This document shows, one piece after another, positions 18,020 to 25,793 of a stretch of 33,199 nt of DNA. Under the pieces are notes generated by a model. That model worked only from the letters and a program-made list of their open reading frames with translations. It was not told the origin of the DNA and ran no database searches. The first letter of the stretch is position 1. Each line of letters opens with the position of its first letter. The translations under genes were made by a program, and so were the position numbers. The DNA comes from Lachnospiraceae bacterium (lineage in GTDB: Bacteria; Bacillota; Clostridia; Lachnospirales; Lachnospiraceae), in assembly GCA_017479085.1 (NCBI GenBank), contig JAFVCQ010000063.1, positions 1 through 33,199 of the forward strand, in the 5' to 3' direction.

Positions 18020-18038
18020 TCAATTCATGTTGAATTGA
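18020..18038. promoter_or_regulatory. Inverted repeat, probable operator of the transporter/radical-SAM operon
   Basis: TCAATTCA-TGT-TGAATTGA is a perfect 8-base inverted repeat around a 3-base centre. It overlaps the -35 box of the operon promoter, so a bound protein would block RNA polymerase. No regulator gene lies within the operon. Confidence 0.5.
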
Positions 18039-18058
18039 CAGTGAAAATAAGATATATT
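18030..18058 (+). promoter_or_regulatory. Promoter of the transporter/radical-SAM operon
   Basis: TTGAAT (18030-18035), a 17-base spacer and TATATT (18053-18058), 38 bases before the first start codon. The -35 box overlaps an inverted repeat. A perfect TTGACA at 18035-18040 has no -10 box at a suitable distance. Confidence 0.55.
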
Positions 18059-18096
18059 TCATGGCAGAAAACCGAGAGAAAGGATAGGGAAACAAG

Positions 18097-19203
18097 ATGA
18101 AAAAACGATTATTTTTAGGGTTACTGCTGGTATTTGCATTGTCAGTTTTTACAATCGGATGTGGTTCGGACGACAGTGCAGGCGATAATACAGAGGCCGT
18201 GCAGGAGGATACGACCGCAGCAGAGACAGAGACCGATGACACAGAGGCTTCGGAGGATACGGAAGCTTCAGTGGATGAAGAGGCGTTTCCACAGACCGAT
18301 CCGAATGAGGAGGTGACCATCCGGATTGCCAGACAGCCTAGTATTTATGTGGCTTGGTGGGCGGACGCACTGGGATATCTGGAGGAAGCATTCAAGGATT
18401 ATAATGTGAAAATTGAGTTCACGGAGTTCACGCTTGGGCCTCCGATCATAGAGGCAATGGCATCAGGTGAGATTGACATTGGATTCATGGGCGATCTTCC
18501 GGCTTATGCGGGTCTTCTGAACGGTGGTACTTATACAATTGTTGGAAAGTATTCCCAGGATACTGCGAAGCAGTTGATTGTCAGAACGGATGCAGGAATT
18601 GATTCGCTGGCAGATCTGAAGGGGAAGAAGATTGCGGTTCCGTTTGGAAGCAATATACAGCCGCTGGCAGAATTGTACTTAGAGGCCGCCGGTCTGACCG
18701 ATAATGATGTAGAATTGATCAATCTTTCCTTTGCCGATATCAACACAAGTATTTTAAATGGTGATATTGATGCAGGTGTCACAGGTGAGCCGAATGTATC
18801 AAAAATCTTAAATAACGGCGGTGACAGTGTGAAGACCTTAGAGACAGCAGATGGCTATAAACTGTATGTGAGTCCGATCATCGTTGAGAATGAATTCCTT
18901 GAGAAGTATCCGGATATTACGGCCAAATTCTTAGAGGCATTGGACAAGGCAGGACAGTGGGCAGAGGAGAATCCGGAGGATGCGATACAGGCGATCGTGG
19001 ATGCAGAGGGATTAGAGTATGATGATGTGGCCGCATTGGTCAGCAATTCAAAGTCATTCCGTCCATATATCACAGAGGATGAGCTGCAGGCCTTGCGGGA
19101 TGGTGCAGATCAGGCTTTGAAGTTTGAACTGATCACATCCGAGCTGAATGTGGATGATTATATTGATCTGAAGTATGCAGAGGCTGCCGGATTAGGAGAA
19201 TAA
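18097..19203 (+). CDS. ABC transporter substrate-binding lipoprotein (NitT/TauT/SsuA type)
   Basis: A 368-residue lipoprotein with signal KKRLFLGLLLVFALSVFTIGC (lipobox TIGC) and an acidic Thr/Glu-rich linker. A two-lobed binding domain of the NMT1/SsuA type follows: TIRIARQPSIYVAWWADALG, FTLGPPIIEAMASGEIDIGF, ADLKGKKIAVPFGSNIQPLAELYL, INTSILNGDIDAG. Relatives bind nitrate, taurine, alkanesulfonates or thiamine precursors; the ligand cannot be read from the sequence. It is the first gene of an eight-gene operon, with its own promoter and a candidate operator. It is followed by a strong stem-loop (19217-19255) that probably keeps its mRNA level above that of the membrane components. Confidence 0.92.
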   Translation: MKKRLFLGLLLVFALSVFTIGCGSDDSAGDNTEAVQEDTTAAETETDDTEASEDTEASVDEEAFPQTDPNEEVTIRIARQPSIYVAWWADALGYLEEAFKDYNVKIEFTEFTLGPPIIEAMASGEIDIGFMGDLPAYAGLLNGGTYTIVGKYSQDTAKQLIVRTDAGIDSLADLKGKKIAVPFGSNIQPLAELYLEAAGLTDNDVELINLSFADINTSILNGDIDAGVTGEPNVSKILNNGGDSVKTLETADGYKLYVSPIIVENEFLEKYPDITAKFLEALDKAGQWAEENPEDAIQAIVDAEGLEYDDVAALVSNSKSFRPYITEDELQALRDGADQALKFELITSELNVDDYIDLKYAEAAGLGE

Positions 19204-19216
19204 TATTGGATAAGTG

Positions 19217-19255
19217 GATTGCCAGACGGTGCGGATAACAATGCGTCTGGCAATC
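19217..19255 (+). other. Intercistronic stem-loop between binding-protein and permease genes
   Basis: A perfect 12-base stem GATTGCCAGACG (19217-19228) with CGTCTGGCAATC (19244-19255) and a 15-base loop. No T run follows, so it is more likely an mRNA-stabilising or partial-attenuation element than a full terminator, as often seen after binding-protein genes. Confidence 0.75.
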
Positions 19256-19295
19256 TATATATTAGAAAAGGATGATAAGGAATGGATGTGGGAAA

Positions 19296-20078
19296 ATGAG
19301 TACAAAGAAGGAAAATGCACTCGTAAGGGCACAGACGATCGTGGGTGCGGCAATTATTCCGGTATTTGTCATTGGATACTGGGTGGTTTGCAGCAAAAAA
19401 GGAATACTAAATACAACGATACTGACCAGTCCGGAGCAGCTTGTGGCACGGTTTCTAAAAATGTTTTCGGATGGAAGCCTGTGGAAGAATATTTTTTCCA
19501 GTACGAGAAGGGTATTAGAGGGCTTTACGATCGGTGCGTTTTTAGGACTTGTCATTGGTTCTCTGGTGGGGCTGTTCAAACCGATTCGGATCTTACTGTC
19601 AGCGGTCATTTCCATTTTGAGACCAATACCGCCCATTTCGATGATACCATTTTTTATTTTATGGTTAGGAATTGGTGAGGAATCAAAGTTAACGATCATT
19701 GCGATCGGAAGCTTCTGGTCTGTGCTGTTAAATACGATACAGGGCTTTCAGGATACCGACCCGAATCTGGTGGAAGTGGCCGATGTATTTGGAAAGAGCA
19801 AGGCGGTGATTCTGTTTAAGATCGTATTGCCCTCTGCGATTCCGTCGGTGTTTACCGGTTTGCGGTTAGGCATGAGCCATGCGTGGACCGCTGTGGTCAC
19901 CGCAGAGATGATCGCAGCATCTTCGGGTGTGGGGTATATGATTCAATATGCGAGAGAGCTGTCTCAGCCGGATTTGTTACTGTTGGGAATTGTATGTATT
20001 GGAATCATCGGTTTGATCATTGATACCGTGGTAATGTTTATTCAGAAGAAGGTAGTGTATTGGAGAACGATCGAATAG
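19296..20078 (+). CDS. ABC transporter permease (SsuC/TauC type)
   Basis: About 260 residues with six predicted membrane helices (for example AAIIPVFVIGYWVVC, FLGLVIGSLVGLF, LLGIVCIGIIGLIIDTVVMF). The BPD_transp_1 cytoplasmic loop contacting the ATPase is ADVFGKSKAVILFKIVLPSA with IPSVFTGLRLGMSHAW. It forms the membrane channel for the importer. The start is uncertain: the ATG at 19296 follows a weak GGATGTGGG, while an in-frame ATG at 19272 abuts AAAAGG too closely. It lies 12 bases before the ATPase gene. Confidence 0.9.
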   Translation: MSTKKENALVRAQTIVGAAIIPVFVIGYWVVCSKKGILNTTILTSPEQLVARFLKMFSDGSLWKNIFSSTRRVLEGFTIGAFLGLVIGSLVGLFKPIRILLSAVISILRPIPPISMIPFFILWLGIGEESKLTIIAIGSFWSVLLNTIQGFQDTDPNLVEVADVFGKSKAVILFKIVLPSAIPSVFTGLRLGMSHAWTAVVTAEMIAASSGVGYMIQYARELSQPDLLLLGIVCIGIIGLIIDTVVMFIQKKVVYWRTIE

Positions 20079-20090
20079 GAGGGCGTTGGA

Positions 20091-20861
20091 ATGGGGTTAT
20101 CGGTTAAGAATGTAAAGCGTGTCTTTTCTATCAACCAGAATGATTTAGAGGTATTAAAGGATATTAATCTGGAAATCAGGGACGGTGAGATTATAAGCAT
20201 TGTCGGGGGTAGTGGCTGCGGTAAAAGCACATTGCTAAAGCTCATTGCCGGACTGGATCGTCCAACGGGTGGAGAGATCCGGTTAGATGATAAGCCGATT
20301 GTAAAGCCGGATCCCCAAAATATTGGTATGATCTTTCAGGAGGCAAGATTATTTCCGTGGAGTACGGTAGAAAAAAACATTGAATTTGGGATGACGGATA
20401 AGCTCTCCAAAGAAGAAAAGGCAGAACGCGTGAAGGAGCATATTGAACTGGTTGGACTGACAGGCTTTGAAAAAGCGCTTCCGGCACAACTGTCCGGAGG
20501 TATGAAGCAGAGGGTGAGTATTGCCAGAGGACTGATCAATCGTCCAAGACTGCTGCTCTTAGATGAACCCTTCGGTGCATTGGATGCCTTTACAAAAATG
20601 AATCTGCAGCAGGAGGTTTTGCGCATCTGGGAAAGGGAGCATATGACCCTGATTCTGGTGACCCATGATATAGATGAGGCAATCTATCTGGGGGACAGAG
20701 TGGTGGTTATGTCTCCGAAGCCCGGCGTGGTCAAGAAGATCTTTTCCGTTGAGCTATCAAGGGAAAGGGATCGTACAAGTGCTGATTTTGCAGCTTACAG
20801 AAGGAAGGTTTTTGATGAATTCTTTGAGCGCAAAGAGGTGGATACGGATTATTCAATCTAA
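20091..20861 (+). CDS. ABC transporter ATP-binding protein (SsuB/TauB type)
   Basis: A 256-residue ATPase with Walker [10 protein letters not shown] (residues 39-47), Q-loop [13 protein letters not shown], signature [15 protein letters not shown], Walker [14 protein letters not shown] and switch VTHDIDEA. The FPW after the Q-loop and the length are typical of nitrate/sulfonate importers. AGGAGGG lies 8 bases before the ATG. It powers the permease encoded just upstream and is followed after 36 bases by the first radical-SAM-like gene, linking uptake to that enzyme. Confidence 0.95.
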
Positions 20862-20897
20862 TAGAATATACATATTTTTTAATGGGAGGAAAAGCAG

Positions 20898-22085
20898 ATG
20901 GCAAAGGAAATCAACAAAGAATTGTACAAAGAAATCCAGTTGAAAAATGAATTACTGGTAGAGGGTGTGAGTTTTGAACCGGATATTTTTCAACATGCAT
21001 CCCTTGGCGATAAGGTGTCGGAACAGGTAAATGCCATGTTTAACAGTGATAAGGAAGCGCATGTGGACAATGAATTTCCTGCATGTATCATTTCGCCAAA
21101 GGGACATTATCGTATTCAGCTTCGATGGATTCGGAAAAGTCCATACAAGTTGAACTATGAGGATGGCAGATATTTGATCCGGAAGGGACATGAGATCATA
21201 TTAGACCCTGTCGTTTTTTCCAAAAGACCGGATTACTATAACAAAAAGACATCGGATGGCGCATGGATGCGAACGGTGGCGCAGGATAATGGACATGGTG
21301 TCATCTTCATCCCATACAGCAATGAATGTGCCCTGAAGGACAGCGGAAAGGACTGCCTGTTTTGTAATATCAATGCCACCAGGGCATTGTATGCGGAAAA
21401 GGAATGTATCGCATGGAAGACAGCGGATCAGATCGCTGAAACCGTGAAGGAATGTTACGGTGACGGTTATGAGCATCTGACGATCAGCGGTGGATTCATT
21501 CCGGAGCGCCGTGAGGTGGACTATTACGTGGATGTGGCAGAGTCCATTACAGAGACACTTGGAAAGGACAGCTTTAACGGTACAGCCTGTGTGGGTGCAC
21601 CTCTGGATTTTTCCGTGTTTGAGAAGTATAAAGAGGCAGGCTTCAGCACCATCGCAACCAATCTGGAGATCTGGGATGAGGGTCTGTTCGACCTCATCTG
21701 TCCGGGAAAAAAGGATTTCTGTGGCGGCAGACAAAACTGGCTGGACGCACTCGATGAAGAATTACGTGTCTTTGGAAAACACAAGGTGCGCTCTGCCTTT
21801 GTGGCAGGTATTGAGCCGAAACCGTCCCTGTTGGAGGGGGTGCAGCACTTAATTGAAAAAGGAGTGATCGCTCTCCCGAATCAGTGGTATGTAAATGTCG
21901 GATCTGCATTGGAAGGTTGCCGGACACCGGAGCCTGAATGGCACTGGGATGTGTATGAAAAGACGGTTGGCTGGTACAGAAAAAATGGTGTGACCTGGGA
22001 TGAGTTTCGCAATGCCACAGCCGCATCCAGCACGGTGCTTCACGATCTGTTCCGTCTGTATGAGGACATTCCTCTAATGGCTTAA
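20898..22085 (+). CDS. Radical-SAM-like protein with CX8CX2C motif (paralogue 1 of the operon)
   Basis: A 395-residue soluble protein. The likely [4Fe-4S] site is Cys144, Cys153 and Cys156 (ECALKDSGKDCLFCN), i.e. CX8CX2C instead of the usual CX3CX2C. Downstream features fit a radical-SAM barrel: EHLTISGGFIPE (position of the GGE-like SAM motif), GAPLDFSVFEKYKEAG, TIATNLEIWDEGLFDLICPG and VRSAFVAGIEP. The N-terminal 130 residues (HYRIQLRWIRKSPYKLNY, RPDYYNKKTSDG) look like a separate domain. It shares the YN-K-S-G block and the ICPGK...G...W block with the protein at 23976-25250, so the two are divergent paralogues. GGGAGG precedes the ATG. The reaction is unknown. Confidence 0.8.
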   Translation: MAKEINKELYKEIQLKNELLVEGVSFEPDIFQHASLGDKVSEQVNAMFNSDKEAHVDNEFPACIISPKGHYRIQLRWIRKSPYKLNYEDGRYLIRKGHEIILDPVVFSKRPDYYNKKTSDGAWMRTVAQDNGHGVIFIPYSNECALKDSGKDCLFCNINATRALYAEKECIAWKTADQIAETVKECYGDGYEHLTISGGFIPERREVDYYVDVAESITETLGKDSFNGTACVGAPLDFSVFEKYKEAGFSTIATNLEIWDEGLFDLICPGKKDFCGGRQNWLDALDEELRVFGKHKVRSAFVAGIEPKPSLLEGVQHLIEKGVIALPNQWYVNVGSALEGCRTPEPEWHWDVYEKTVGWYRKNGVTWDEFRNATAASSTVLHDLFRLYEDIPLMA

Positions 22086-22137
22086 CCTGTACAGTGTTGT
22101 ATCGGAACAATGAGAATTCAGCATAGAAGGAGAAGAT

Positions 22138-23184
22138 ATGATAAAGGATCCGGTTGTCTTTGTGACAGATGATTTTTTATTAAAGGACAATTTTGAACTG
22201 CTGACGGAAAAATTGCTGCAGCGGGGAATTCGTGTGATTACAGGTCCGCCCACCATTCCGGGAGGGAAAAAAGAATACGCACAAGAGGAAATTCTGCAGT
22301 TTTTTCAGGATGTGGATGTGGTGATGGGATGTCCAAGAACAATTGCTAACAGACGGTTTTTAGAGAACTGCAGACATATTCTGGGTATTGTATACCCGGG
22401 AATCGGAGTGGAGACTCTGGATGTACAGACAGCGACTGAGAATGGGATCGCAGTGGGATTTGGGCCGATTCCCGAGAATTTTATAAGTGTCGCAGAGTTT
22501 GCGGTCGCATTGATTCTGATGTCGGTTCATCGCATGTTAAGTGGTGTCTATGCAACCTATGGAAAGGCACAGTGGCATAGGGACCGGTCGAATCCGGCAG
22601 GTGCCATATATAAAAAGAAAATCGGTTTTTTGGGATTTGGAAGAATTGGCAGGGCCGTGGCAGAAAGATTACAGCACTTTGATGTGGAAATGCTGGCGTA
22701 TAGCCCTTCCCTGACGAAAGCAAATGTGCCGGATTATATACAGGTGTGTACGAAGGAGGAGGTCATCCGGAAATCGGATGTTCTCGGATTGTATGTGGTG
22801 ATTAATGACGACACGAGAAATATGATAAACAGGGATACCTTAGCGATGATGAAACCAACTGCATATTTGATCAATATTGCCAGAGGAGAGGCGGTCAACG
22901 AGGAGGATCTGTATGAGGCGTTAAAAAATGGTGTCATAGCGGGTGCGGCATTGGATACCTATCAGCATGAGCCTCTGCCGCCAGACAGCGGCCTCAGAAT
23001 GTTGGACAATGTGATTCTGACACCACATATTGCAGCATCCACACGGGATCAGTTCTATGCAAGTCTGCAGGCTGAGTTTGATAATATTGTGGATATCTTA
23101 GAGGGACGTCTCCCGCGTTACTGCAAGAATCCGGAGGTGGAGCGGGCATTTTTTGACAGATATGAGTTGAGAAATTCAATTTAG
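22138..23184 (+). CDS. D-isomer-specific 2-hydroxyacid dehydrogenase
   Basis: The 348-residue protein has the split two-domain architecture of the family. The NAD-binding motif is GFLGFGRIGRAVAERL (GxGxxG). The catalytic trio is visible as Arg in NIARGEAVNEEDL, Glu in LDTYQHEPLP and His in ILTPHIAAST. It would interconvert a 2-hydroxyacid and a 2-oxoacid with NAD(P)H. The substrate is not readable, but the setting in the transporter/radical-SAM operon suggests it acts on a product or precursor of that pathway. AGAAGGAG precedes the ATG; 52 bases separate it from the gene before. Confidence 0.93.
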   Translation: MIKDPVVFVTDDFLLKDNFELLTEKLLQRGIRVITGPPTIPGGKKEYAQEEILQFFQDVDVVMGCPRTIANRRFLENCRHILGIVYPGIGVETLDVQTATENGIAVGFGPIPENFISVAEFAVALILMSVHRMLSGVYATYGKAQWHRDRSNPAGAIYKKKIGFLGFGRIGRAVAERLQHFDVEMLAYSPSLTKANVPDYIQVCTKEEVIRKSDVLGLYVVINDDTRNMINRDTLAMMKPTAYLINIARGEAVNEEDLYEALKNGVIAGAALDTYQHEPLPPDSGLRMLDNVILTPHIAASTRDQFYASLQAEFDNIVDILEGRLPRYCKNPEVERAFFDRYELRNSI

Positions 23185-23249
23185 TAACCAGAGCATCCGT
23201 TGTTGGCAGTTTGCGCTGTACTGGTACAGAGATAAGGAGAGAAGATATT

Positions 23250-23897
23250 ATGGAAATTACATTTGTAACAGATTATGTTTGTCCGTTTTGTATTGTAGGG
23301 AAGGAGCTTTTGGAGCGGGCGATTGACAGGTTAGGACTGGATGTTCAGGTGACGCATCATCCGATTGAACTGACGGAGGAGCCTGAGCCGAGAGTAGATA
23401 CATACCACGACGAAAAAAGGCGTGAGCGGTATAAGAAACTGGTGGAGCCGGGCAAAGCATTGGGATTAGATTTGAAGATACCGCCCAATATTATTCCAAG
23501 ACCTTATTCCAGACTGGCGCATGAGGGATGGTTTTATGCAAAAGAGCATGGAGCCGGTAAGCTTTACAGCGATCTGGTCTACAAAGCATATTTTATAGAC
23601 GAAGAGGATATTGGGGAGCTGTCCGTGCTGGCGGATATTGCCGGGAAGGCGGGACTAAATGCAGACGAGTTCAGGCAGGCATTAGAAGAGGGAACCTACA
23701 AAAAGGTACAGAGGGATGCGGTCAAATATGCAAAAGAGGATCTGAAGGTGACCTCGCTTCCAACCTTAGTGATCAATGGAAAAAAGATTAATTTTCAGGA
23801 ATATACGATAGATGAGGCGGTTCGCATACTGCAGAATGGGGAACACACGACTTCGAAGGCAGGGGAGTCCTGCAGTATAGATGGATGCTGCAGCTAA
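23250..23897 (+). CDS. DsbA/FrnE-family thiol oxidoreductase with Cys-rich tail
   Basis: A 215-residue thioredoxin-fold protein of the DsbA (FrnE/HCCA isomerase-like) family. The active-site CPFC is Cys11-Pro-Phe-Cys14. The cis-Pro loop is VTSLPTLVING, and a helical insert (residues about 55-150) contains PYSRLAHEGWFYAKEHG. There is no signal peptide, so it acts in the cytoplasm, unlike classical DsbA. An extra C-terminal tail, CSIDGCCS, adds three cysteines and may bind a metal or act as a resolving thiol. GGAGAG precedes the ATG at 23250; an earlier in-frame ATG at 23211 has no ribosome site. A sulfur- or metal-handling role in the operon is my inference. Confidence 0.88.
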   Translation: MEITFVTDYVCPFCIVGKELLERAIDRLGLDVQVTHHPIELTEEPEPRVDTYHDEKRRERYKKLVEPGKALGLDLKIPPNIIPRPYSRLAHEGWFYAKEHGAGKLYSDLVYKAYFIDEEDIGELSVLADIAGKAGLNADEFRQALEEGTYKKVQRDAVKYAKEDLKVTSLPTLVINGKKINFQEYTIDEAVRILQNGEHTTSKAGESCSIDGCCS

Positions 23898-23975
23898 ATT
23901 ACTTTCGTTCGCGGGTATAAAAAGGTATCCTTTTAAAATGCGATGGAACGGATAAAGGAAACGGGAGGCGTTGTG

Positions 23976-25250
23976 ATGGCAAGGGACAAGGAATGGAGAA
24001 AAAAGGAACTCAGCTTAAAGGAGGTACAGGAACGATATCCGGATATTCCGAAAAGCATGATCTTGAAGGTGGATCTGCAACGAAGAGGGCTGACCTATTC
24101 GGATGCAGCCGTTGCAAAGATAGATCCGGATATACATCTTGTAAATGCAGCCGGTGCAAACCGGTTTCGCGTCAGTGCAGATTATGTTCCGGATGGTCTG
24201 CTCATGCGGGATGGATCCTATCTGGTGATCAGCAATTTTGATTATGAGAAAAAGGAGCCGGAGCGGGATCCATATCTCATTGATGTAGTGGACGATCAGA
24301 TTGTGATCGTAGATCAGGATGAAGTGGTGGACTGGATTCAGGGATATTGGGAGAAGCCGGATTTTTATAATCAAAAGGCATCCAACGGAGAGCCTTTAAA
24401 TACATATGTGGCATGCCGCCCACAGAGATTAGAAATCACCATCAATTCCTACTGTCACTTCTGGGATACACCGGGTGAGGGCTGTAAATATTGTCCTATG
24501 TCTCCGAATTACAAGCTGAGCGGCAAGACAGAGGAACGATATGATCTAAAATATTATCAGGAGGCCTTTGCAGAAGCGGTTAAACAGAAGGGAAGAAACA
24601 CCATCGTGATCTTAACAGGCGGTTCGATCCTGTCGGGAGAGGAGGTGTTGGATGATGAGCTTCAGGTGTATATGGATGTGTTGAAGATGATCGGCGAATT
24701 TTTTGAACCCGGGCAACGCTTTCCAAGCCAGTTGATCGCAACGGCCTTTCATGAGAGGCAATTGGAACGGCTTTATGAGGAGACAGGACTTATGATCTAC
24801 ACACCGGATATCGAAGTGCTGAATAAGGAAAAATTTGAGTGGATCTGTCCCGGAAAAGCCCGTCATGTGGGATACGAGGAGTGGAAACGACGAATCTTTA
24901 AGGCAGTTGATATTTTTGGAAAGGGAAATGTGACAACGGGGGTCGTACTGGGAGTAGAGCAGGCCACACCGAATGGATTCCCGACAGAGGATGAGGCCTT
25001 TCGGGCAATCACAGAGGAAGCGGAGCATATTATATCGCACGGCGTAGCGCTTGCCGCCAACATTTGGAGAGCTACACCGAGATCTGCATTTCAAAATCAA
25101 AATACTCCTTCGCTCGACTATTATATCCGCACATTGCGTGAATTCGACCGGTTACAGAGAAAATACATTTCAAACCCATATACGGATGATTATAGGCGTT
25201 GTGGCGCGCATGTGGGTCTGGATCTGATGCGAACATACGGGGAGGTATAG
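23976..25250 (+). CDS. Radical-SAM-like protein with CX9CX2C motif (paralogue 2 of the operon)
   Basis: A 424-residue soluble protein with candidate cluster cysteines Cys160, Cys170 and Cys173 (SYCHFWDTPGEGCKYCPM), i.e. CX9CX2C. It is followed by barrel-like blocks VILTGGSILSGEE (GGE-like), LYEETGLMIYTPDIEVLN, FEWICPGKARHVG and VTTGVVLGVEQATPNG. The first 140 residues are a separate domain with a helical part (KELSLKEVQERYPDIPKSM) and EKPDFYNQKASNGEPLN, the latter shared with the protein at 20898-22085. GGGAGG lies 7 bases before the ATG at 23976; an upstream in-frame ATG at 23943 lacks one. Only 3 bases separate it from the PPOX gene. The reaction is unknown. Both paralogues in one operon suggest successive steps or a heterodimer. 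Confidence 0.8.
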   Translation: MARDKEWRKKELSLKEVQERYPDIPKSMILKVDLQRRGLTYSDAAVAKIDPDIHLVNAAGANRFRVSADYVPDGLLMRDGSYLVISNFDYEKKEPERDPYLIDVVDDQIVIVDQDEVVDWIQGYWEKPDFYNQKASNGEPLNTYVACRPQRLEITINSYCHFWDTPGEGCKYCPMSPNYKLSGKTEERYDLKYYQEAFAEAVKQKGRNTIVILTGGSILSGEEVLDDELQVYMDVLKMIGEFFEPGQRFPSQLIATAFHERQLERLYEETGLMIYTPDIEVLNKEKFEWICPGKARHVGYEEWKRRIFKAVDIFGKGNVTTGVVLGVEQATPNGFPTEDEAFRAITEEAEHIISHGVALAANIWRATPRSAFQNQNTPSLDYYIRTLREFDRLQRKYISNPYTDDYRRCGAHVGLDLMRTYGEV

Positions 25251-25253
25251 AAA

Positions 25254-25730
25254 ATGGCAGTGATCGGCAAGGAATTACTAGAGATTTTAGAGGATCCGCA
25301 GACATTAAAATGTATTGCGGCGACCGACAGGGATGGTATCCCGCACATTTCCTATAAGGGAACGCTGCATGTGGAGGAGGATGTCATTGTATTTTATGAC
25401 ATACTGCAAAGCTCACAGATCAACAAGAATCTGGTACATGCGATCTGGTTTGAAAAGAAAGTGGCGATCAGCATTTTATCAAAGGACAGACAAAGCTTTC
25501 ATATAGTGGGAGTCCCATTCAAATGCGTGACAGCCGGAGCGTATTTTGAAAAAACATACGAAAGGCTGCGTGCTGAAAAAGGGGATGTGGATTTGAATGC
25601 CATCTGGTATATCAGGCCGGAACAGGTGCGCGAAAACACATTCTCTGTCAGAAAGGCCGAGGAGGAACAGAACTATCCGGTGTTAAAACATATTGACCGC
25701 ATGATAAAGCCGGAGTTTTTAGAACAGTAA
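25254..25730 (+). CDS. PPOX-type flavin split-barrel protein
   Basis: A 158-residue protein of the pyridoxamine 5'-phosphate oxidase-like split-barrel fold. Visible features are LKCIAATDRDGIPHISYKGT, VIVFYDILQSSQINKNL and KKVAISIL, the usual FMN- or F420-binding strand pattern. Members include flavin reductases and oxidases; the real cofactor and substrate cannot be told. GGGGAGG lies in the last codons of the preceding radical-SAM gene, so the two are coupled. It is the last gene of the operon, with a terminator 19 bases downstream. It may supply electrons to the radical-SAM enzymes or reduce a pathway product (inference). Confidence 0.8.
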   Translation: MAVIGKELLEILEDPQTLKCIAATDRDGIPHISYKGTLHVEEDVIVFYDILQSSQINKNLVHAIWFEKKVAISILSKDRQSFHIVGVPFKCVTAGAYFEKTYERLRAEKGDVDLNAIWYIRPEQVRENTFSVRKAEEEQNYPVLKHIDRMIKPEFLEQ

Positions 25731-25749
25731 ACAGTGGTCTTTTTCCATG

Positions 25750-25783
25750 AAAAGCAGTAAATCTAAAAGGTTTACTGCTTTTT
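25750..25783 (+). terminator. Intrinsic terminator ending the transporter/radical-SAM operon
   Basis: A perfect 12-base stem AAAAGCAGTAAA (25750-25761) with TTTACTGCTTTT (25771-25782), a 9-base loop and a following T run. Confidence 0.85.
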
Positions 25784-25793
25784 AAAATTTATA

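Follow-up and report, generated by a model that had tools for sequence, protein, structure and literature searches.

An importer operon with two variant radical-SAM enzymes in a Lachnospiraceae draft genome, and its predicted part in anaerobic sulfur scavenging from sulfonates

What does a Lachnospiraceae bacterium do with an importer and two unusual radical S-adenosylmethionine (SAM) enzymes encoded in one run of genes? The question is raised by a stretch of 33,199 nucleotides (the window; contig JAFVCQ010000063.1 of assembly GCA_017479085.1), in which eight open reading frames (ORFs), all on the + strand, occupy positions 18097-25730. The initial annotation had placed eight same-strand genes there, and this is confirmed. 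With the two radical-SAM genes named rSAM1 and rSAM2, the genes are as follows.

18097..19203, + strand: SsuA/NMT1-type substrate-binding lipoprotein (368 aa; one Cys and two Met after the start)
19272..20078, + strand: SsuC-type permease (268 aa; BPD_transp_1)
20091..20861, + strand: SsuB-type ATPase (256 aa; ABC_tran)
20898..22085, + strand: rSAM1, variant radical-SAM protein (395 aa; CX8CX2C, CPGK motif)
22138..23184, + strand: D-2-hydroxyacid dehydrogenase, SerA/glyoxylate-reductase-like (348 aa; 2-Hacid_dh_C)
23250..23897, + strand: DsbA/FrnE-like thioredoxin-fold protein (215 aa; DSBA; from an inner ATG within a longer TTG ORF)
23976..25250, + strand: rSAM2, variant radical-SAM protein (CX9CX2C; the ORF opens at 23943, 435 aa from there)
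25254..25730, + strand: PPOX/pyridoxamine-phosphate-oxidase-like flavoprotein (158 aa; weak profile match)

The intergenic gaps are, 5' to 3', 68, 12, 36, 52, 65, 45 and 3 nt, the sixth becoming 78 nt if rSAM2 starts at 23976, the later start favoured by the sequences of relatives, and the eight co-directional genes plausibly form one operon. The families assigned in the initial annotation were recovered for SsuA, BPD_transp_1, ABC_tran, 2-Hacid_dh_C and DSBA and, through the NF045502 profile, for both radical-SAM proteins; only the PPOX assignment stays under its Pfam cut-off (PF01243, 18.0 versus 28.1 bits). The DsbA/FrnE-like protein has no signal peptide as judged by eye, and no Met after its start. 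We think it rather probable that this operon is among the loci of a system for anaerobic sulfur scavenging that imports a sulfonate, cleaves its C-S bond by radical-SAM chemistry and releases sulfite. The observations that speak to this, read directly in the sequences, are gene content, clade structure, genome co-occurrence, sulfur-poor composition and sulfite and siroheme neighbours.

Both radical-SAM proteins have the three-cysteine cluster motif and TIM-barrel fold of the superfamily, with spacings that differ from the canonical CX3CX2C. The NF045502 profile, named 'variant_rSAM', gives 430 bits for rSAM1 (cut-off 125) and 171 bits for rSAM2; Pfam Radical_SAM matches rSAM1 barely (30.0 bits, cut-off 29.5) and rSAM2 not at all. 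rSAM1 lies in the same clade as radical-SAM genes that adjoin Isr-type (isethionate reductase) nitrogenase-like genes in relatives, and rSAM2 is 73% identical to the copy in Blautia sp. MSJ-19.

We read the neighbourhoods of 22 rSAM1 and 23 rSAM2 copies, those of the window included; genomes, loci and contigs carry our handles G, L and C below. Of the 22 rSAM1 copies, 20 have importer genes on their own strand no more than 5 kb away, the remaining two (both in L060) having an opposite-strand Ssu-type gene; for rSAM2 the count is 22 of 23, with L066 (34% identity) and L019 included on a generic ABC match. In L017 and L019 an importer set, complete in L019, is adjacent on the opposite strand. 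The suggestion that the importer and two unusual radical-SAM enzymes work together is supported. A PPOX gene lies near rSAM2, within 5 kb in 20 of 23 copies and within 200 bp in 19. Units of rSAM2, PPOX and importer occur in named Lachnospiraceae, Eubacteriaceae and Spirochaetota genomes, and units of rSAM1 and importer in genomes of the window's order. The order metK - rSAM2 - PPOX - SsuA - SsuC - SsuB, in which metK encodes a SAM synthetase, is found in Blautia sp. MSJ-19 and Roseburia hominis, and the same metK, rSAM2, PPOX and Ssu content in other orders in Eubacterium, Pseudobutyrivibrio, Lachnospira and Treponema. The Blautia unit L009 is 73% (rSAM2), 53% (PPOX), 54% (SsuA), 66% (SsuC) and 70% (SsuB) identical to the window, which therefore resembles that unit minus metK, plus rSAM1, the dehydrogenase and the DsbA-like gene. 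Conservation of the neighbourhood, the check proposed with the initial annotation, accordingly holds for these smaller units, while no locus that was read holds the full eight-gene set. Radical-SAM genes of one clade occur two or more to a locus in eleven others (L011, L012, L014, L055, L057, L058, L060, L062, L063, L064 and L100). PF01048 phosphorylase-family genes, fit for the removal of 5'-deoxyadenosine, lie near 5 of the 22 rSAM1 copies. As a separate observation, a LacI-like regulator (by eye) recurs beside metK2-rSAM2 clusters (metK2 being the metK type of these clusters), at L013 5788-6888, L015 10870-11937, L069 7298-8377, L099 5497-6570 and L100 16643-17716.

What is imported? The binding lipoprotein scores 191.7 bits with the SsuA profile TIGR01728 (cut-off 163.5), which predicts an aliphatic sulfonate as its ligand class. 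It also matches NMT1 (93.6 bits), and NMT1/THI5-like binding proteins can serve non-sulfur compounds, so that a small molecule such as an HMP/thiamine precursor, an amine or a heterocycle might be imported and modified by the radical enzymes. We regard this as very improbable: the sulfonate subfamily cut-off is exceeded, Met is low in the operon and in the proteins of relatives, tRNA-Cys, siroheme, MetY-, CysK-like and sulfite-reductase genes are neighbours in some relatives, and the loci read hold no neighbour that supports a non-sulfur substrate. Among the substrate classes first suggested, the SsuA score and the sulfur signature leave a sulfonate as the most likely, and the neighbourhoods read give no hint of an amine or a heterocycle. 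The eight proteins of the operon contain 1.40% Met; for 16 flanking genes, chosen by eye, the figure is 2.91% (p 3e-5). When an element is scarce, the proteins made at that time tend to contain little of it, and the sulfur-poor composition points to expression of the operon and cluster proteins under sulfur starvation.

The sulfur signature extends to a second SAM synthetase, MetK2, which is almost free of sulfur. A metK gene lies near 18 of 23 rSAM2 and 5 of 22 rSAM1 copies, and in a metK search of 32 genomes at least two metK genes were found in 19 of 24 carriers of the radical-SAM genes and exactly one in all 8 non-carriers. In the MetK tree, a branch with support 100/99 separates all 19 cluster copies from 20 housekeeping copies, and a Treponema copy falls inside the cluster (MetK2) clade; L012 was set aside from the tree and the sulfur counts, and the MetK2 row of L055 is partial. 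After the start residue, Cys and Met together number zero in 12 of the 19 MetK2 copies (one of them partial) and three at most, as against 11-18 in the 384-394 residues of the 20 housekeeping copies; some MetK2 starts are probably too long, which could only add Met. The positions that separate housekeeping MetK from MetK2 include C19A, C41A, C89I, M132I, M133I, M145L and C279P in housekeeping numbering. Combined Cys and Met content is 0.40% in IsrD-like proteins, 0.83% in PPOX and 1.6% in SsuA, and 4.2% in 112 other ORFs of at least 250 aa from the same loci.

Across an even set of 246 genomes of the order, MetK2 was present in 8 of 9 carrier genomes (rSAM1 or rSAM2 at 40% identity or more) and in none of the 237 others (Fisher 3e-14), a p value that overstates independence since the genomes counted are related. 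The 40% requirement set aside 13+1 genomes below it, the strongest being G030 at 34%. The MetK2 limit (E <= 1e-185), fixed after the 32-genome search, only just separates MetK2 from the best-scoring housekeeping copies (about 1e-183, at 71% identity), so that more diverged MetK2 may be missed. The ninth carrier, G018, without MetK2, is a draft in 300 contigs. In the bacterium studied here metK2 sits on contig C87 and not in the window.

A second, sulfur-free SAM synthetase would be easiest to understand if SAM turnover were high exactly when sulfur is scarce. MetK2 might instead be a sulfur-saving housekeeping substitute in a general starvation response, SAM being used catalytically, the radical-SAM proteins merely modifying a sulfur compound and another enzyme freeing the sulfur. 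The low sulfur content of MetK2 and some of its neighbours would fit this, as would the sulfur-assimilation genes near some clusters. We nevertheless hold it to be quite unlikely, as MetK2 tracks the radical-SAM genes in the 246 genomes, a point that would be decisive only if the non-carriers assimilate sulfite equally.

How do the nitrogenase-like genes relate to the operon? In five relatives (G118, G158, G187, G218 and G172) rSAM1 stands in one gene run with metK2 and the nitrogenase-like H, D and K genes, and in G158 and G187 it adjoins K. Passages of PMC11423573 give for isethionate reductase a pattern of one conserved Cys in IsrD and three in IsrK (12, 37 and 99). This pattern is found in 7 of 7 IsrD-like and 7 of 7 IsrK-like proteins, those of C87 and of relatives, the C87 proteins having one Cys (IsrD-like) and Cys 12, 37 and 100 (IsrK-like). 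On C87 a second rSAM2-PPOX-Ssu unit that includes metK2 has as neighbours D, K and the end of an H gene, and at the end of contig C172 of the same genome a NifH-like gene (G145-type, by BLAST likeness rather than family scan) adjoins a second rSAM1. A search of the whole genome with its own IsrD-like protein matched C87 only, so that the window itself is without H, D and K. Two different NifH-like gene pieces lie at contig ends of this genome (L021 12936-13427 and L022 10462-10887), and it may hold two nitrogenase-like sets. In rSAM1 loci with nitrogenase-like genes, a second type of PPOX-like protein, a PF01048 phosphorylase and a MatE-family exporter also recur (L055 5209-7003 and 10102-10800; L057 11677-14177), and PF01243 gives 45.8 and 52.4 bits for other PPOX-like proteins from rSAM1 loci.

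All seven genomes with rSAM1 (at least 47% identity), the query genome included, carry an IsrD-like gene at 43% identity or more, and an eighth has a fragment at 42%. None of 11 named rSAM2 genomes has an IsrD-like gene at 40% identity or more (the search set aside G271, G272, G267 and G274; G246 and G256 gave matches of 22-29%, best 144 bits), so rSAM2 seems to work without a nitrogenase-like enzyme. On the radical-SAM tree, having a nitrogenase-like neighbour takes 7 gains or losses, compared with a mean of 10.5 on shuffling (6 of 500 shuffles as low), and is thus partly clustered yet changed repeatedly.

The radical-SAM proteins might never touch the substrate and serve instead as maturases, in the manner proposed for NifB and MarB, by assembling or activating the metal centre of the nitrogenase-like reductase. 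Against such a role stand the 11 rSAM2 genomes, the single H-D-K sets ringed by several radical-SAM and importer units in G118, G158, G218 and G172, with other rSAM1 and importer units lacking H, D and K, and the importer found in nearly every locus, which a maturase does not need; we judge it unlikely. Radical-SAM genes that multiply with importers while the nitrogenase-like set is single or absent look substrate-facing, and in our reading the radical-SAM proteins meet the substrate themselves and have, in one branch, the nitrogenase-like enzyme as a putative partner.

Where would the sulfur go? In Treponema (L018) genes for siroheme synthesis (a SirC-like NAD-binding protein, HemC, a CobA-HemD fusion, HemB and HemL) lie 5' of metK2, as do CobA-HemD, HemB and HemL in L099. 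In G272 one run of about 20 kb reads, in one direction, sulfite-reductase domain gene, HemA, SirC, HemC, CobA-HemD, HemB, HemL and a LacI-like gene, and continues with metK2, rSAM2, PPOX, SsuA, a second PPOX, SsuC, SsuB, a second rSAM2, a TauE-family protein, MetY and ThiF. The sulfite-reductase domain PF01077 is present in 20 of 22 carrier genomes, in seven of them on the same contig 8 to 31 kb from the radical-SAM cluster; the domain is so common that its mere presence says little, and the linkage and the siroheme genes say more. Contig C32 of the genome studied here holds a sulfite-reductase domain gene, siroheme genes and MetY-, CysK- and Rrf2-like genes, and near other clusters are Cys/Met-metabolism PLP enzymes, CysK-like and cysteine-desulfurase-like genes, Rrf2 and a rhodanese-TusA-DsrE protein. 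Such neighbours fit the release of sulfite more than that of a thiol. With the SAM synthetase, nitrogenase-like, sulfite-reductase and siroheme genes on other contigs of the same genome, the description of the operon as self-contained is not supported. In 3 of 9 loci scanned with ARAGORN a tRNA-Cys (GCA) gene stands directly beside the metK2-rSAM2-PPOX-Ssu cluster.

L013 99-170: tRNA-Cys (GCA)
L016 14382-14452: tRNA-Cys (GCA)
L022 15-86, - strand: tRNA-Cys (GCA), on C87

Degenerate tRNA-like elements, tRNA-Cys-like by eye, precede metK2 at L057 2152-2222, L058 19056-19126 (- strand) and L011 8383-8453; they score 35-38 bits with Rfam tRNA, are negative in ARAGORN and are followed by a short ORF (DUF2292 by Pfam in the one scanned) and then metK2.

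We infer the substrate class, the C-S cleavage, the SAM stoichiometry and the role of each redox protein as follows. SsuABC would import a sulfonate-type compound. The variant radical-SAM enzymes would use SAM as a co-substrate and not only as a cofactor, yielding methionine and 5'-deoxyadenosine at each turnover; the resulting substrate radical would break its C-S bond and sulfite would leave. The PPOX flavoprotein would probably supply electrons to rSAM2, and rSAM1 would act with or beside the Isr-type nitrogenase-like reductase encoded elsewhere in the genome, as its electron supply. MetK2 (on C87), nearly free of sulfur, would remake SAM from methionine in a cycle that costs ATP and no sulfur, and the PF01048 phosphorylase-family protein, where present, would remove the 5'-deoxyadenosine. 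Siroheme sulfite reductase would turn sulfite into sulfide, to be fixed into Cys and Met by MetY/CysK-type enzymes. In the window one importer would serve both radical enzymes. The weakest step concerns the SerA-like dehydrogenase, which might produce or consume a 2-hydroxy acid, sulfolactate for instance; the added dehydrogenase and thiol protein suggest a hydroxy- or oxo-acid sulfonate, for example sulfolactate or sulfopyruvate. PMC6303947 places the sulfolactate dehydrogenase SlcC within or close to the SerA clade, and the SerA likeness of our protein is compatible with such an enzyme. We more tentatively propose, at somewhat less than an even chance, a new anaerobic desulfonation class in which radical-SAM enzymes cut the C-S bond at the cost of one SAM per sulfur atom and SAM is renewed by a horizontally carried sulfur-free synthetase, with a nitrogenase-coupled (rSAM1) and a nitrogenase-free, flavoprotein-coupled (rSAM2) form, joined behind one importer in the window.

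Several points weigh against this scheme. The case is built on sequence. Genes for MetK2, a nitrogenase-like enzyme, sulfite reductase or siroheme synthesis are absent from the window itself, and contigs C87, C172 and C32 share with it a draft bin that is 78.67% complete and 4.86% contaminated; tetranucleotide correlation with the window, in a comparison that covered C87 and C172, is 0.93 and 0.95, respectively. Neither the dehydrogenase nor the DsbA-like gene is matched in the relatives' loci that were read, and 245 further genomes of the order yielded no relative of the dehydrogenase at E <= 1e-60. Five of the 24 carriers have one metK, of the MetK2 type only in G009, of the other type only in G018, G254 and G256, and a fragment in G274, and the genomes counted are related to one another. 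The sulfur-poor MetK could simply stand in for housekeeping MetK during starvation. With 2.9 to 3.4% Cys and Met, rSAM1, rSAM2, SsuB and SsuC show no strong depletion of sulfur, and the Cys content of the operon hardly differs from that of its flanks (1.32% versus 1.49%). PF01077 is found in 11 of 14 control genomes too, and siroheme genes lie near the cluster in few loci only.

The operon's boundaries, described in the initial annotation as a promoter with a candidate operator and a strong terminator, are marked by the following features.

18020..18038: perfect 8-3-8 inverted repeat TCAATTCA-TGT-TGAATTGA, candidate operator
18030..18058, + strand: promoter-like site TTGAAT-17-TATATT (9/12 matches, chance level)
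25748..25784, + strand: 17-pair hairpin, terminator-like, with a weak T tail

The perfect repeat is there and overlaps the promoter-like site, but the latter does not exceed chance, promoter-type matches in the window numbering 27 with 21.8 expected. A 7-3-7 pattern derived from the operator candidate occurs once in the window at up to two mismatches (0.19 expected); being built from the site itself, it shows that the site is single in the window and not that it acts. No exact copy of the operator core was found among 130 loci compared, so no shared regulon motif is shown. The hairpin likewise stands, and the window contains 15 terminator-like sites (7.4 expected). No Rfam element reaches its gathering score in the window. 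A Fur-family regulator and a ZnuA-type binding protein lie 3' of the operon, a theme not shared with it.

How much of this is already known? The Isr system, Ssu importers and siroheme sulfite reductase are. Rhodobacter capsulatus IsrBHDK and SsuCAB, as described in passages of PMC11423573, combine a radical-SAM gene, nitrogenase-like genes and an importer to obtain sulfur from isethionate. Our system is alike in the Ssu-type importer, the radical-SAM gene and the predicted oxygen-free sulfonate assimilation, and the C87 D and K proteins carry the published cysteine pattern (PMC11423573); it is unlike in that the window is without H, D and K genes, that rSAM2-PPOX units occur in genomes without an IsrD-like gene, and that metK goes unmentioned in the main text of PMC11423573. 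The same paper describes, in passages on the subject, the IslAB isethionate lyase, a glycyl-radical enzyme with its activase, as an anaerobic radical route of sulfite release from a sulfonate. Radical, anaerobic sulfite release is what we propose here too; in contrast, no glycyl-radical enzyme is seen in the operon and the radical-SAM enzyme would act directly. A stretch of Pseudobutyrivibrio sp. OR37 (L128 959-8323) holds what we take, by eye, to be a large glycyl-radical-like gene and a radical-SAM activase-like gene; on the same stretch an Ssu importer and a MetY-like gene adjoin the sulfite-reductase locus. A second, IslAB-like sulfonate route is possible in that genome.

The MSMEG_0568 radical-SAM family (TIGR04043), linked to Nit1C nitrilase clusters, is the next best named profile for rSAM1. 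Membership was rejected, rSAM1 (83.7 bits) and rSAM2 (33.1 bits) lying far below the cut-off of 303.7, and no nitrilase was found among ten proteins scanned. We know of no importer or MetK link for MarBHDK, the methylthio-alkane reductase. That system resembles ours in nitrogenase-like C-S bond cleavage with a radical-SAM partner gene, and differs in its substrate, a thioether and not a sulfonate, and in the NifB motifs of MarB (all as given in passages of PMC12552129).

On plasmids, the best MetK2 match was 70.7%. The 15 listed of 456 rSAM1 matches were of the MSMEG_0568 type beside a nitrilase or plain 'radical SAM protein', and the one record inspected had no adjacent importer or H, D and K genes. 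rSAM2 had two Streptomyces relatives (27-28%), of which the one inspected lacked an adjacent importer or MetK, and among the 15 listed of 222 IsrD-like matches the best reached 21-27% identity. Among the matches listed in literature outside subscription papers and preprints, we found no description of a dedicated sulfur-free SAM synthetase, of the nitrogenase-free rSAM2-PPOX form or of the joined form, and there is a fair chance that the predicted anaerobic sulfonate assimilation proceeds here by a new enzymatic route.

Sulfonates such as taurine, isethionate and sulfoquinovose breakdown products are common organic sulfur sources in guts, and how fermenting anaerobes obtain sulfur from them is only partly known. 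From the module come named genes, a marker (the sulfur-free MetK2) and a reaction that can be tested. PMC11423573 calls the part played by the radical-SAM partner of isethionate reductase unclear, and the module has a bearing on this question too. If the reading is true, a SAM synthetase without Cys or Met would neatly exemplify how scarcity of an element can shape the very enzyme that handles it.

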